Positions 26,177 to 30,860 of a stretch of DNA of 64,000 bases are shown here, one piece after another. Origin of the DNA: Thermoplasmata archaeon. Its GTDB lineage: Archaea; Thermoplasmatota; Thermoplasmata; Lutacidiplasmatales; UBA184. Each line of letters begins with the position of its first letter. Position 1 is the stretch's first letter. Made by a program: the position numbers and the translations under genes. The notes under the pieces were generated by a model. The model made no database searches, was not told where the DNA came from, and saw nothing but the letters and a program-made list of their open reading frames with translations. The stretch lies in NCBI GenBank assembly GCA_028864975.1, contig JAGWLG010000004.1, positions 1-64,000 on the forward strand, written 5' to 3'.

Positions 26177-28642
26177 TCAGAACTCCCCGAGGCTCGCCTG
26201 CCGTTTCTTGCGGCGGCCGGTCTCGAGGGCCTCCAGCGCGGAGGTCCCCCCGCCGACGGCGATGCCGGCCTCGACCGGGGGCCGCGCGGAGGCCACCTCG
26301 CCCCCGAAGAGGTTCTGTTGCTGCGTCCTTTGGAGCAGCCGGGCCTGGTCCCATCCGAAGACCTCCGTCACCCGGGCGAGCGTCTGGGCGACACGCTCCG
26401 CGTAGTATTGGACGTCAGGGCGGCCCTGGAGCTCTCGTCCTTCCACGTACGGCTCGACCTGCTGCGGGCTCTTCTTCGCGTTCGTCACGATCCAGGCGAC
26501 CTTCATCCCCGGGACCACGGGGTAGCCCTCCTCCTTGAGCTGTCGGAAGATCCGCAGGAAGGGGAGGGCGTCCCGGGTCGCCGCGTTGTACTGCTCCTCG
26601 CCTCGGACCGTCCGGGCGATGATGTACCGTTCGGCCTCGTACTTCCCCTGGAGGACGTTCTGCACGACCTCGCGGGCGTGCTCGCACGCCTTCTCCGTCT
26701 CCCCGGAGAGGACGAGCTCGAAGACCTCCTGCAGGCTCTGGCTCTGCAGGTCGAAGGAGTCCGTGCGCCGGGTCTCGTACCCCCGGATGATGGTGTCCTC
26801 CTTCGGCCAGACCTGACGGGCGACGTAGCGCTTCTTCACCCCGTGGCTGAAGAAGGAGGCGTAGACGCTCTGGAACTCGAGCGAGGTCCCCTCCTTCGAG
26901 AACGTGGCGGAGAGCTTCTCTCCCAGGGCCCGGGCGCCCTCCAGGGAAGGCTGCGGGGAGCGGACGAAGATGCTGTCGGTGTCCGAGTAGATCACCTCGG
27001 CGCCCTCCGCCTCGACCGCCGCGATGACGCTCTTGGTCGTTTCGCGAGCGAAGGCGGTGATCGCCGCCCCGATCTCCTTGTTCGTGAAGCGGTAGAAGGA
27101 GCTCGCGAGCACGCCGTAGAAGGAGTTCATCAGGATCTTGACCGCGTTCTGGAGTCCGTCCAGGTAGAGGCGCTCGTCGTCGCCCTTCGTCGCCTTGAGC
27201 TCGCGTTTCAGACGGTCGCGCTCCGCCATCAGGGACCGGAGGATGTCCGGGACGAGCCCCCGCCGAACGTCGGGGGAGAGGAACCGGGCCCCGTTCGGGG
27301 CCACGACGCTGCCCTGCGGGGAGAGCGTCGTGAAGCAGATGTTCTTCGAGATGATGATCGACGGGTACATCGACTTGAAGTCGAGGACCACGACCCACTT
27401 GACCAGGTCGGGCTTGATCGCGTGGACGTATCCGCCCTCGATCGCGGCGTCCCCCGCGGTCCTCCGCGTCGGGGGGACCCCGATACGGCGTCGGTCCGCT
27501 TCCGGGATGAGCAAAGAGTCGACCAGCAGGCTGGTCCGGCCGTTGAGCCCCTCCTCGAGGTAGAGGTGGGCCACGGTCGCCATGTCCGACCCCCGCTCGA
27601 CGGCGCGGAGCTTGCGGAGGATCCTCAGCGCGAGGACCGCATCGTGCTCGCAGTACTCTACGACCTTCGCCGGGTCCTTGGCCCATTCCTCGTCCATGTT
27701 CCGGCGGTCGACGTCCTTCTTCCCCTCGCCCAGGAGGAGCCGGGAGACGAACTCGAGCGTCTCCTGCTTCGGGTGCAGGATCGTCCGCGCGAACCACCAG
27801 GCGTCGGCGATGGCCCGACCGTGGGCCCGCCACAGCCGGTCGCCGATGTCGCTCACCGGGCCTAGGTCGCGTCCGAGCGGGAGGGCGCCGTTGTCGGGGA
27901 GCCCCAGAGCCTTCGCCCGCTCTTCGAGCAGCGGGATGTCGTACCCGCCGATGTTGTATCCGACGATGATGTCCGGGTCCTCTTCCTGCACCTTGGCGAA
28001 GAACCCCTCGAGGATCCCTCGCTCGGCTCCCTGCAAGCGGAAGCCCCGGAGCTCCCCGTCCCCGCGCTGGACGACCCCGCACAGGCAGAAGATGGTCCGG
28101 TCCTTGAGCGAGTTCTCGATGTCGAAGGAGAGGTACGTGAGGGGCGGTCGGAAGGTGTCGCAAGGTGAGATCGCTCCCTGGACCCGAACGACCTCCTGGG
28201 TCGTGTACCCGCGACGGGCCGCCTCCGGCTCGGGCTCTGCGTCGAAGGCGACGGTGAGCCCCAGGTCGCGGTCGTAGAGGAAACGATGGGCGAAGGGGAT
28301 GTCGCAGGCGAGGACCCCCTCGTCCTCGCCCGGCTTCGCGAACCTCCGGCGATAGTCAGGGACCTTCCAGGGGAACTTGATCGTGACGCGAAGCGTGTCA
28401 CGCTCCGCCCCTCGATAGAAGACCTTCAGGTCCTCGAGCTTCAGGACCTCGGGGTCGTGCGAGAGCGCTTCCCGGACGGCGGGGTCGGGTTCGACCAGCA
28501 TGAACCAGGGGCGGTGGTCGTAGCAGCGGGCCGTGACCGACCGCCCGTCCTTCGTGCGTCCGAAGAGCTCGACGACGACGGAATCGCCGTCGGGGTGGTG
28601 GCGGTAGGAGCCCCCGAGAAGGAAGAGCTCGTACCGGGACAT
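26177..28642 (-). CDS. polB: Family B DNA polymerase
   Basis: YLSFDIENSLKDRTI, DFKSMYPSIIISKNICF, ILMNSFYGVLASSFYRF, YSDTDSIFV; C-terminal RQASLGEF PIP-box-like. Confidence 0.96.
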   Translation of the reverse strand: MSRYELFLLGGSYRHHPDGDSVVVELFGRTKDGRSVTARCYDHRPWFMLVEPDPAVREALSHDPEVLKLEDLKVFYRGAERDTLRVTIKFPWKVPDYRRRFAKPGEDEGVLACDIPFAHRFLYDRDLGLTVAFDAEPEPEAARRGYTTQEVVRVQGAISPCDTFRPPLTYLSFDIENSLKDRTIFCLCGVVQRGDGELRGFRLQGAERGILEGFFAKVQEEDPDIIVGYNIGGYDIPLLEERAKALGLPDNGALPLGRDLGPVSDIGDRLWRAHGRAIADAWWFARTILHPKQETLEFVSRLLLGEGKKDVDRRNMDEEWAKDPAKVVEYCEHDAVLALRILRKLRAVERGSDMATVAHLYLEEGLNGRTSLLVDSLLIPEADRRRIGVPPTRRTAGDAAIEGGYVHAIKPDLVKWVVVLDFKSMYPSIIISKNICFTTLSPQGSVVAPNGARFLSPDVRRGLVPDILRSLMAERDRLKRELKATKGDDERLYLDGLQNAVKILMNSFYGVLASSFYRFTNKEIGAAITAFARETTKSVIAAVEAEGAEVIYSDTDSIFVRSPQPSLEGARALGEKLSATFSKEGTSLEFQSVYASFFSHGVKKRYVARQVWPKEDTIIRGYETRRTDSFDLQSQSLQEVFELVLSGETEKACEHAREVVQNVLQGKYEAERYIIARTVRGEEQYNAATRDALPFLRIFRQLKEEGYPVVPGMKVAWIVTNAKKSPQQVEPYVEGRELQGRPDVQYYAERVAQTLARVTEVFGWDQARLLQRTQQQNLFGGEVASARPPVEAGIAVGGGTSALEALETGRRKKRQASLGEF

Positions 28643-28676
28643 GGCCCCGCGAGCCTACGATGGAGATAGGGGTTTG

Positions 28677-28698
28677 GTATGTGTTCAGCTCCCCCGGC
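28677..28698 (+). repeat. Left terminal inverted repeat of TnpB element
   Basis: gtatgtgttcagctcccccggc. Confidence 0.75.
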
Positions 28699-28907
28699 AA
28701 GAACTCAGGTGCTGACGGCGCTAGAACCTGCGGCCAGTGCGCCACGGTTGTGATCTCTTCGTCACGGCGGGGAGGCAGCCCCGCAGTCCCCGCCTGAAAC
28801 GGTTGCGCCATCTCGAGCTCCCCTCTAGAACTCGGTTTCACGTCCTCTCGAGGGTTCATCTTCTCGGACCGCTCGTCCCTCTCTCCCCTTACGCCCCGGA
28901 GCTCCCC

Positions 28908-30218
28908 TTGCACCTCTCCTACCAGTACCGGATCTATCCTCGCCCCTCGCAGGAGGCCACCCTCGAATCCTGGAGGAAGGAGCTGGGCTATCTATGGAAC
29001 TTCGCCCTCGCTCAGCGGAAGGACGCCTGGGAGCGCGAGCACCGCCCCGTTTCCTACCTCGACCAGCAGGAGAGCCTGGCCACTTGGAGGAGCTTCGACG
29101 CTCGGGGGTTGGGGCAGGTCCGTTACGTGGTCGCCCAGAACCTGCTCCAGGAGCTCGATCTCGCCTACCGCTCCTTCTTCCGCAGAGTGAAGGACGGGGA
29201 GCGGCGACCGGGGTACCCTCGGTTCAAGAAAGACGGCACGGTCCGCTCCTTCCGCTTCAACTACGCGGACACCTACGTCAAGATCGGGACCTCGGCGACA
29301 GACCGGCGGGTCCGGCTCTCCGGGATCGGGTACGTTCCCATCGTGGTTCACCGCGAGCCCCCCGCTGATGGGAAGCTCCTCACCGCCACGGTCTCCCGCG
29401 AGGCGGACCGCTGGCTCCTGACGCTCGTCTACGAACTACCGGACCCTGCTCCGCCCCCTCCCCCCGAGGTGGCGCCCGCGAACCCTGTCGGGATCGACCT
29501 GGGGATCATGCACCCCCTCGCCCTTTCCACCGGAGAGGTGGTCGAACCTCTGCGTCCCCTTGAGGCGGCGGAGGAGCGGCTGAAGCGGGAACAGCGACGA
29601 CTCGCTCGGAAGGAGAAGGGGTCGAACAACCACCGCAAGCAGGCGGCGAAGGTGGCGCGCTGCCATCAGAGGGTCGCGGACCGTCGCAAGGACCTCTGCC
29701 ACAAGCTGACCTCCCGTATTGCGCGCGAGCACGACCTGGTGGCGGTGGAGGCGCTGAACGTCCCGGGGATGGTCCGCGGGCCGCTTGCGAAGGCGATCCT
29801 GGACGCGCCGTGGGGGAGGATGCGGTCGATGCTGGAGTACAAGCTCGCTATGAGGTCGGGGCGCTACGTGGAAGTGGACCCGCGGGGGACCACCCAGACG
29901 TGCTCGGCGTGCGGGCGGGTCGCCGACCCACCGCTTGCGCTGGGGGAGCGCGTGTTTGCCTGTCCCTGCAGGCATCGCGAGGACCGTGACGTGAACGCGG
30001 CTCGCAACGTGCTGCATCGTGGATGTGACAGCGTACGGCGGATGTCGTCGGAAGTGAAGCCTGCGGAGAGGACGCCACCACCGCGGACCGGGGGCCGTCG
30101 GGTCTACCGGGGGCGGCGAGCGACCTCGAGGAACCAGGAAGACGCCTCACGACCGGAGGGGGAGGGCTCTCCCGGGGCCATCCCCGGGCGGCGCAAGCCC
30201 CCCGGCCGGCGAGGCTGA
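28908..30218 (+). CDS. tnpB: TnpB RNA-guided nuclease (IS1341/IS605-type OrfB)
   Basis: TTG start; HLSYQYRIYPRPSQEATLESWRKELGYLWNFAL...PANPVGIDLGIMHPLALSTGE...LVAVEALNVPGM...DPRGTTQTCSACG...CPCRHREDRDVNAARNVL; RuvC D/E/D present. Confidence 0.93.
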   Translation: MHLSYQYRIYPRPSQEATLESWRKELGYLWNFALAQRKDAWEREHRPVSYLDQQESLATWRSFDARGLGQVRYVVAQNLLQELDLAYRSFFRRVKDGERRPGYPRFKKDGTVRSFRFNYADTYVKIGTSATDRRVRLSGIGYVPIVVHREPPADGKLLTATVSREADRWLLTLVYELPDPAPPPPPEVAPANPVGIDLGIMHPLALSTGEVVEPLRPLEAAEERLKREQRRLARKEKGSNNHRKQAAKVARCHQRVADRRKDLCHKLTSRIAREHDLVAVEALNVPGMVRGPLAKAILDAPWGRMRSMLEYKLAMRSGRYVEVDPRGTTQTCSACGRVADPPLALGERVFACPCRHREDRDVNAARNVLHRGCDSVRRMSSEVKPAERTPPPRTGGRRVYRGRRATSRNQEDASRPEGEGSPGAIPGRRKPPGRRG

Positions 30219-30860
30219 ACATATACGGGGTTTGCTGCCTTCCGCGAAAGGGTCGGGTCGGAGGGACGGCAGGAGCACGGCGAAGCGTGCCCAGTCGTCC
30301 CGCCATCGCTCTCCGTAGCGCTTCGAGTGGAGGGTCGAGGCGGGGTGGAGCATCGGAAAGAGTGTCCGCCCCCAGATGGTGGCCGCGTGGCCCGCCGCAC
30401 GGGAGATGGGAAGTTCCTCCGGCGCGAACGCCTCGAGAGCGTGCGTGCCAAGGGTGACCAGCACGCGGGGGTCGAGCGTGCCGAACTTCGCTTCGAGCCA
30501 AGGTCGGCAAGCGGCGGCGGCCCTGCGGTCGAAGCGGTTCTGCGGGGGCCGGCACATGATCACGTTCGTGACCCCCCAGTCCCTGGGGCGAAGCCCCGAG
30601 GCCGCCACCGCCCGGTCGAGGATCCGCCCCGCCCTGCCGACGAACGGGAGACCGGAGGCGTCCTCTTCCTTCCCGGGGGCCTCTCCGATGAACAGGACCC
30701 AGGGGCGCGGCGCTCCTCGATAGACCACGACCTGATGCCGAAGGGAGGCGAGATGGCAACGGACGCACGCCTTCATCTCAAGTTCGAGGGCCGCCCACGG
30801 CACGACGGCCTCGGGAAGGCTGACGGGATGGAGCCGCAGACGCCGCCGACGCTCGGTCAA
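30147..30860 (-). CDS. Type-4 (Fe-S) uracil-DNA glycosylase; C-terminal ~27 codons derive from the inserted TnpB element
   Basis: MKACVRCHLA...VLFIGEAPGKEEDASGLPFVGRAGRILDRAVAASGL...VTNVIMCRPPQNR...FPMLHPASTL; four Fe-S cysteines. Confidence 0.92.
   Translation of the reverse strand: MTERRRRLRLHPVSLPEAVVPWAALELEMKACVRCHLASLRHQVVVYRGAPRPWVLFIGEAPGKEEDASGLPFVGRAGRILDRAVAASGLRPRDWGVTNVIMCRPPQNRFDRRAAAACRPWLEAKFGTLDPRVLVTLGTHALEAFAPEELPISRAAGHAATIWGRTLFPMLHPASTLHSKRYGERWRDDWARFAVLLPSLRPDPFAEGSKPRICSASPAGGLAPPGDGPGRALPLRS
30171..30188. repeat. Hairpin near the 3' end of tnpB (7-bp stem, 4-nt loop)
   Basis: CCCGGGG-CCAT-CCCCGGG; may belong to the right-end/omega-RNA structure. Confidence 0.5.
30205..30226 (-). 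repeat. Right terminal inverted repeat of TnpB element
   Basis: gccggcgaggctgaacatatac, reverse complement matches the left end 18/22, first 13 nt 12/13. Confidence 0.75.

Follow-up and report, generated by a model that had tools for sequence, protein, structure and literature searches.

A TnpB nuclease gene framed by IS66-type ends and an 8-bp target duplication in a Thermoplasmata archaeon

TnpB, an RNA-guided nuclease, was thought to be confined to the insertion sequences (ISs) of the IS200/IS605 and IS607 groups; here it rides on the unrelated ends of IS66. The tnpB gene in question lies in the window, i.e. the whole stretch of 64 000 nt from a Thermoplasmata archaeon that was analysed (contig JAGWLG010000004.1; the genome is G000 in our numbering), within a 1550-bp segment bounded by terminal inverted repeats (TIRs) and 8-bp target site duplications (TSDs). 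The explanation that best accounts for the data as a whole, and that we hold to be highly probable, is that this segment is an IS66-type non-autonomous element with TnpB and its right-end element RNA (reRNA) as sole cargo.

The initial annotation had proposed an element of this length, with TIRs matching at 18 of 22 positions (12 of the first 13), identical 8-bp flanks (GGGGTTTG) and no transposase gene between the repeats. All of this was recovered at the same coordinates (Table 1): tnpB is the longest open reading frame between 28677 and 30226, no further recognisable gene is present, and no IS66 DDE transposase gene was found there, the three IS66 matches of the window genome being located elsewhere. 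An IS200/IS605 element has no TIR, makes no target duplication and inserts 3' of a short motif, a description that the window element does not fit. A TIR scan of the window genome returned this copy only, without a partner carrying identical TIRs.

High G+C sequence yields many short repeats, and TIRs and TSD could be imagined to match by chance around an IS1341-like tnpB whose IS605 ends had escaped notice. We regard this as practically excluded. When other TnpB loci were searched in the same way for TIRs plus TSD, scores reached at most 31, compared with 38 for the window; the sole locus to equal the latter value (L049, genome G071) is a sibling element, and the siblings have TSDs of their own (see below). 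Chance is refuted by the empty site, a comparison that the initial annotation had put forward. In two congeners, G001 and G002, the junction between udg and polB holds no insert and reads GGGAGATA-GGGGTTTG-CT, with a single TSD. The insert is likewise missing from this junction in a third congener, G003, where the local sequence has diverged. The PolB proteins of the congener loci are 80-82% identical over the first 114 residues; the udg-polB loci are therefore orthologous. The tetranucleotide GATA found at 28665-28668, just outside the left TSD, is also found at the unoccupied site in G001 and G002.

The same kind of ends was found around TnpB in eight genomes besides that of the window, with other 8-bp duplications, as had been anticipated. 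Sibling insertions occur in G071, G026, G028, G074 and G023; in addition, G068 and G024 have left ends, and G080 has right ends. The TIR consensus of the set is GTA..(T/C)TCA(C/G). The TSD could be seen on both sides in 11 insertions, that of the window included: CTCTTTGT and GCTCTA[C/G]G (7/8) in G071, TAA[G/C]TTTG (7/8) in G028, AGGTTTG (7 bp) in G026, GCGTTTCG in G074, and CCTCGCGG, GCCACCGG, GAGCGGTC, CTCGCTCC and AAGTTGTC for the five insertions of G023. The sites of G074 and of G023, whose five copies are cut by contig ends, were re-paired across contig ends by means of the shared TSD. Within the TSD, G is favoured beside the left TIR and T just before it (about half of the copies).

TIRs beginning with GTA together with 8-bp TSDs were a hint at IS66, a family of DDE elements that generate 8-bp duplications. 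Searches with PF03050 revealed IS66 transposases in 40 of the 103 genomes of the archaeal family. The corresponding elements mostly measure about 1.5-1.7 kb and carry TIRs of the kind found on the TnpB elements; their transposases match the NCBIfam model transpos_IS66 (about 1e-72 to 1e-73) as well as PF03050, and several are flanked by perfect 8-bp TSDs (AATCCCCC, GTCCCGTT, GCTTCCGC, GTCCGACC and CCCGGGCC). For most copies, TIR identity between TnpB and IS66 elements is 19-20/22. The TnpB copies differ in the IS66 subgroup that they match, the best match of the window element (19/22) being in G032, and in two genomes (G068 and G080) a TnpB element is accompanied by an IS66 element whose TIR matches. 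The autonomous family with the same TIRs that the initial annotation had envisaged thus exists in the same archaeal family, and the proposal of a non-autonomous DDE-type element with TnpB as sole cargo stands; its generic MITE-like label (for miniature inverted-repeat transposable element) gives way to a specific one, since the identity of TIRs and TSD supports assignment to the IS66 type. Mobilisation by an IS66 transposase acting in trans is what the shared ends would imply. One contig of 1636 bp (L087, G080:C18) corresponds exactly to one IS66 element, from TIR to TIR.

The protein itself is a TnpB. It matches the Pfam domains OrfB_IS605 (4.6e-29) and Cas12f1-like_TNB (4.4e-21), which includes the C-terminal zinc finger and RuvC region, and the NCBIfam model guided_TnpB (1.2e-81), and it aligns with the ISDra2 TnpB structures 8bf8 and 8h1j at about 1e-44. 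The RuvC triad (D197, E281, D361) and the cysteines C332, C335 and C352 are invariant across the TnpBs of TIR-bounded elements. Related TnpBs, 44-51% identical in amino acids, were found in relatives belonging to one archaeal family, and they have two types of ends, either IS605-like fixed ends or TIRs with an 8-bp TSD. Those of the former type have TGAC at the left end, a hairpin followed by GGATGTCAC at the right end, and no TIR. In the tree, the TIR set is monophyletic (support 97/88) and its sisters carry IS605-type ends, which shows that the TnpB of the TIR clade derives from an IS605-type ancestor by one switch. The claim that this tnpB sits in something other than an IS605 unit is therefore borne out, the copies of the clade ending at TIR and TSD and IS605-type ends being seen in the sister clade only. 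A scan of genome contigs with the TnpB protein detected distant relatives only. The window genome has a second TnpB, L067 (G000:C46:62200-66500), which is 51% identical and belongs to the IS605 type; the two kinds thus occur side by side in this genome. One TnpB within the TIR clade, L048 (G080:C11:75400-79600), was tagged IS605 in the tree solely because its ends were not located. A class-wide search with a profile of the TIR clade gave no TIR-type relatives beyond this archaeal family, the ends of the distant matches being unchecked individually. Of the eight other carriers, seven gave no match to the Y1 transposase (PF01797), nor did the window genome; the eighth carrier, G024, and several sister-clade genomes do have one.

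These data bear on the idea that an ordinary IS605-type tnpB was caught once in an IS66 MITE, as a frozen nested insertion. The single copy in the window genome would agree with such an event, which we nevertheless judge very improbable. It is refuted by the siblings, nine genomes having between them about 20 independent insertions with the same kind of TIR; the TIR clade is monophyletic, with G023 copies about 90-97% identical to each other in DNA, and it lacks the IS605 right-end hairpin and GGATGTCAC that the sister clade has retained.

The flanks of the insertions provide a further clue. Immediately outside the left TSD, 18 of 20 TIR-TnpB insertions have the dinucleotide TA, which is found at almost no other offset (background frequency 0.019); a left remnant beyond these 20 (L244) also has it. 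At the mirrored position on the right it was found in none of 15 flanks (Fisher p = 4.2e-8), and at IS66 ends in only 4 of 58 (p = 5.7e-12). Such a one-sided motif fits a transposon-associated motif (TAM) adjoining a guide that begins at the TSD, and the flank statistics point to 5'-TA as the predicted TAM. TTTG, present at the end of some TSDs, was considered as a TAM and rejected, being found in a minority of insertions as against 18/20 for the outer TA. The insertion sites thus suggest that they bear the mark expected of a still working TnpB. TA followed by eight bases could instead be the target preference of the transposase, the element being of IS66 type and moved in trans with TnpB as passive cargo. 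The cognate IS66 transposase is often not assembled in TnpB carriers, which leaves some room for this explanation. We consider it unlikely, though less so than a single capture: the 4 of 58 score was obtained at IS66 ends with closely matching TIRs, the motif is one-sided and oriented with tnpB, and the conserved reRNA pairing described below argues for selection on the nuclease.

For the region from the 3' end of tnpB to the right TIR, comparative analysis predicted 41 base pairs, 19 of them with compensatory changes, and none of 500 shuffles did as well. The predicted structure extends, as in TnpB systems generally, over the 3' end of tnpB to the right end of the element. A terminal stem joins the arm that follows a conserved GAA to the inner part of the right TIR. 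When 5' and 3' arms from seven lineages were exchanged, the pairing of each arm with its own partner ranked first of 5040 assignments; the TIR therefore appears to be built into the reRNA scaffold. The TSD, in turn, looks like the first part of the guide. Like the flanks, the covarying scaffold suggests a TnpB that is still functional. Folding of single right ends gave mostly weak z-scores, and only the comparative tests were informative.

A few observations go against the interpretation of an IS66-type element shaped by its TnpB. The genome of the window element does not hold the IS66 TIR nearest to its own, which belongs to a different genus (G032). Five carriers (G023, G026, G028, G071 and G074) yielded no IS66 transposase in their assemblies; most of these are fragmented metagenome-assembled genomes, but G028 consists of only five contigs. 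Two G080 loci (L046 and L047) have right TIRs and no recognisable left ones. Nearly half of the insertions scored for TA (9/20) come from G023, without which the count is 9/11, and TA is missing in two, those of G026 and G024. Finally, several TnpB copies hold stop codons.

Put together, the mechanism could be as follows. An IS66-family DDE transposase supplied in trans would recognise the GTA..TTCAS repeats, move the element and make the 8-bp duplications. The reRNA would span the 3' end of tnpB and the right TIR, the inner half of which would form the last stem, with the guide beginning at the TSD. At an unoccupied site (TA-TSD-flank) TnpB would cut, and repair from the copy bearing the element would restore it. 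Occupied sites would be spared because the guide is preceded at the right end by AC, or in one copy by GC, instead of TA, and because the left junction offers just the 8 nt of the TSD. Insertions beside TA would be kept and others would tend to be lost, as the flank statistics imply. TnpB would appear, by its TAM position and by the TIR built into its reRNA, to be adapted to the IS66-type element. With moderate confidence, we favour a broader proposal: TnpB would be a transposase-independent homing module that left IS605 for an IS66-type element, shifted its TAM from TGAC to TA, had its reRNA rebuilt around the new terminal repeat, diversified over several IS66 subgroups and now helps an archaeal DDE transposon to persist, a role close to the one that has been proposed for Fanzors.

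The element can be compared with several known systems. It shares with IS66 the GTA..TTCAS repeats, the 8-bp TSD, a size of about 1.6 kb and the archaeal family, and differs by having tnpB in place of the transposase gene. IS66 has a gene also named tnpB (IS66 Orf2), unrelated to the RNA-guided TnpB. MITEs, mobile insertion cassettes and transporter ISs are non-autonomous DDE-type elements with a passenger gene; here, however, the passenger is an RNA-guided nuclease, the guide of which would be rewritten at each insertion. With the IS200/IS605 (IS1341-type) elements it has in common the protein family, the reRNA layout and a sister clade of this very type, but those have neither TIR nor TSD and depend on the Y1 transposase TnpA, whereas the window clade has both and mostly no Y1. 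It is established that the TnpB of IS200/605 elements cuts the element's own empty site, recorded in the guide, which helps retention and spread (e.g. PMC11870625). Fanzor1 and Fanzor2* elements are found in eukaryotic DNA transposons with TIR and TSD, the cargo of which is a TnpB relative, in some cases with no other gene; the Fanzor TIR forms part of the reRNA scaffold and the TSD is predicted to be another part of it (Bao and Jurka 2013, PMC3627910; Yoon et al. 2023, PMC10711439). The likeness thus concerns a TnpB relative as TIR/TSD cargo and a TIR built into the scaffold. The archaeal TnpB differs in being near IS605-type TnpBs, with IS66 ends and an 8-bp TSD, and in a TSD that appears to belong to the guide, not to the scaffold, with TA as the apparent TAM. 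Nor is the host a eukaryote or a eukaryotic virus, the gene context (a family 4 uracil-DNA glycosylase and an archaeal-type family B DNA polymerase) being archaeal. No report of TnpB combined with IS66 was found in the openly licensed literature. The clade is a counter-example from prokaryotes, and the ancestry of its sister clade is known; for that reason the stages of a change of transposon (new ends, new TAM, recoded reRNA) should be directly readable and testable. The natural insertion sites, for their part, suggest that TnpB shapes the retention of a DDE transposon that makes target duplications.

Table 1. Positions of the element, its parts and the neighbouring genes in the window
Feature	Coordinates	Strand	Basis or remark
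polB, family B DNA polymerase, downstream of insertion	26177-28642	-	synteny in G001-G003
TA directly 5' of left TSD, predicted TAM	28667-28668	+	one-sided flank statistics
Left TSD, GGGGTTTG	28669-28676	+	single copy in congener empty sites
TIR/TSD element, 1550 bp	28677-30226		between identical 8-bp flanks GGGGTTTG
Left TIR, IS66-like, GTATGTGTTCAGCTCCCCCGGC	28677-28698	+	18/22 to right TIR; 19/22 to G032 IS66 TIR
tnpB	28908-30218	+	TTG start likely; open frame 28737-30218; conserved core 28908-30113
Predicted reRNA scaffold, overlapping tnpB 3' end, six conserved helices	29996-30138	+	covariation
Predicted terminal reRNA stem, 3' arm in inner part of right TIR	30139-30219	+	arm-pairing permutation test
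udg, family 4 uracil-DNA glycosylase, interrupted near 3' end	30147-30860	-	last codons run into element
Right TIR, GTATATGTTCAGCCTCGCCGGC on minus strand	30205-30226	-	
Right TSD, GGGGTTTG	30227-30234	+	
Predicted guide segment (TSD and flank)	30227-30246	+	TA position and IS605-type rule placing the guide start at the element right end

The stop codon of tnpB falls within the right TIR. On the opposite strand, the insertion swaps the last codons of udg for element sequence, which adds about 28 residues to the protein. The position of the insertion is also likely to be the promoter region of polB.
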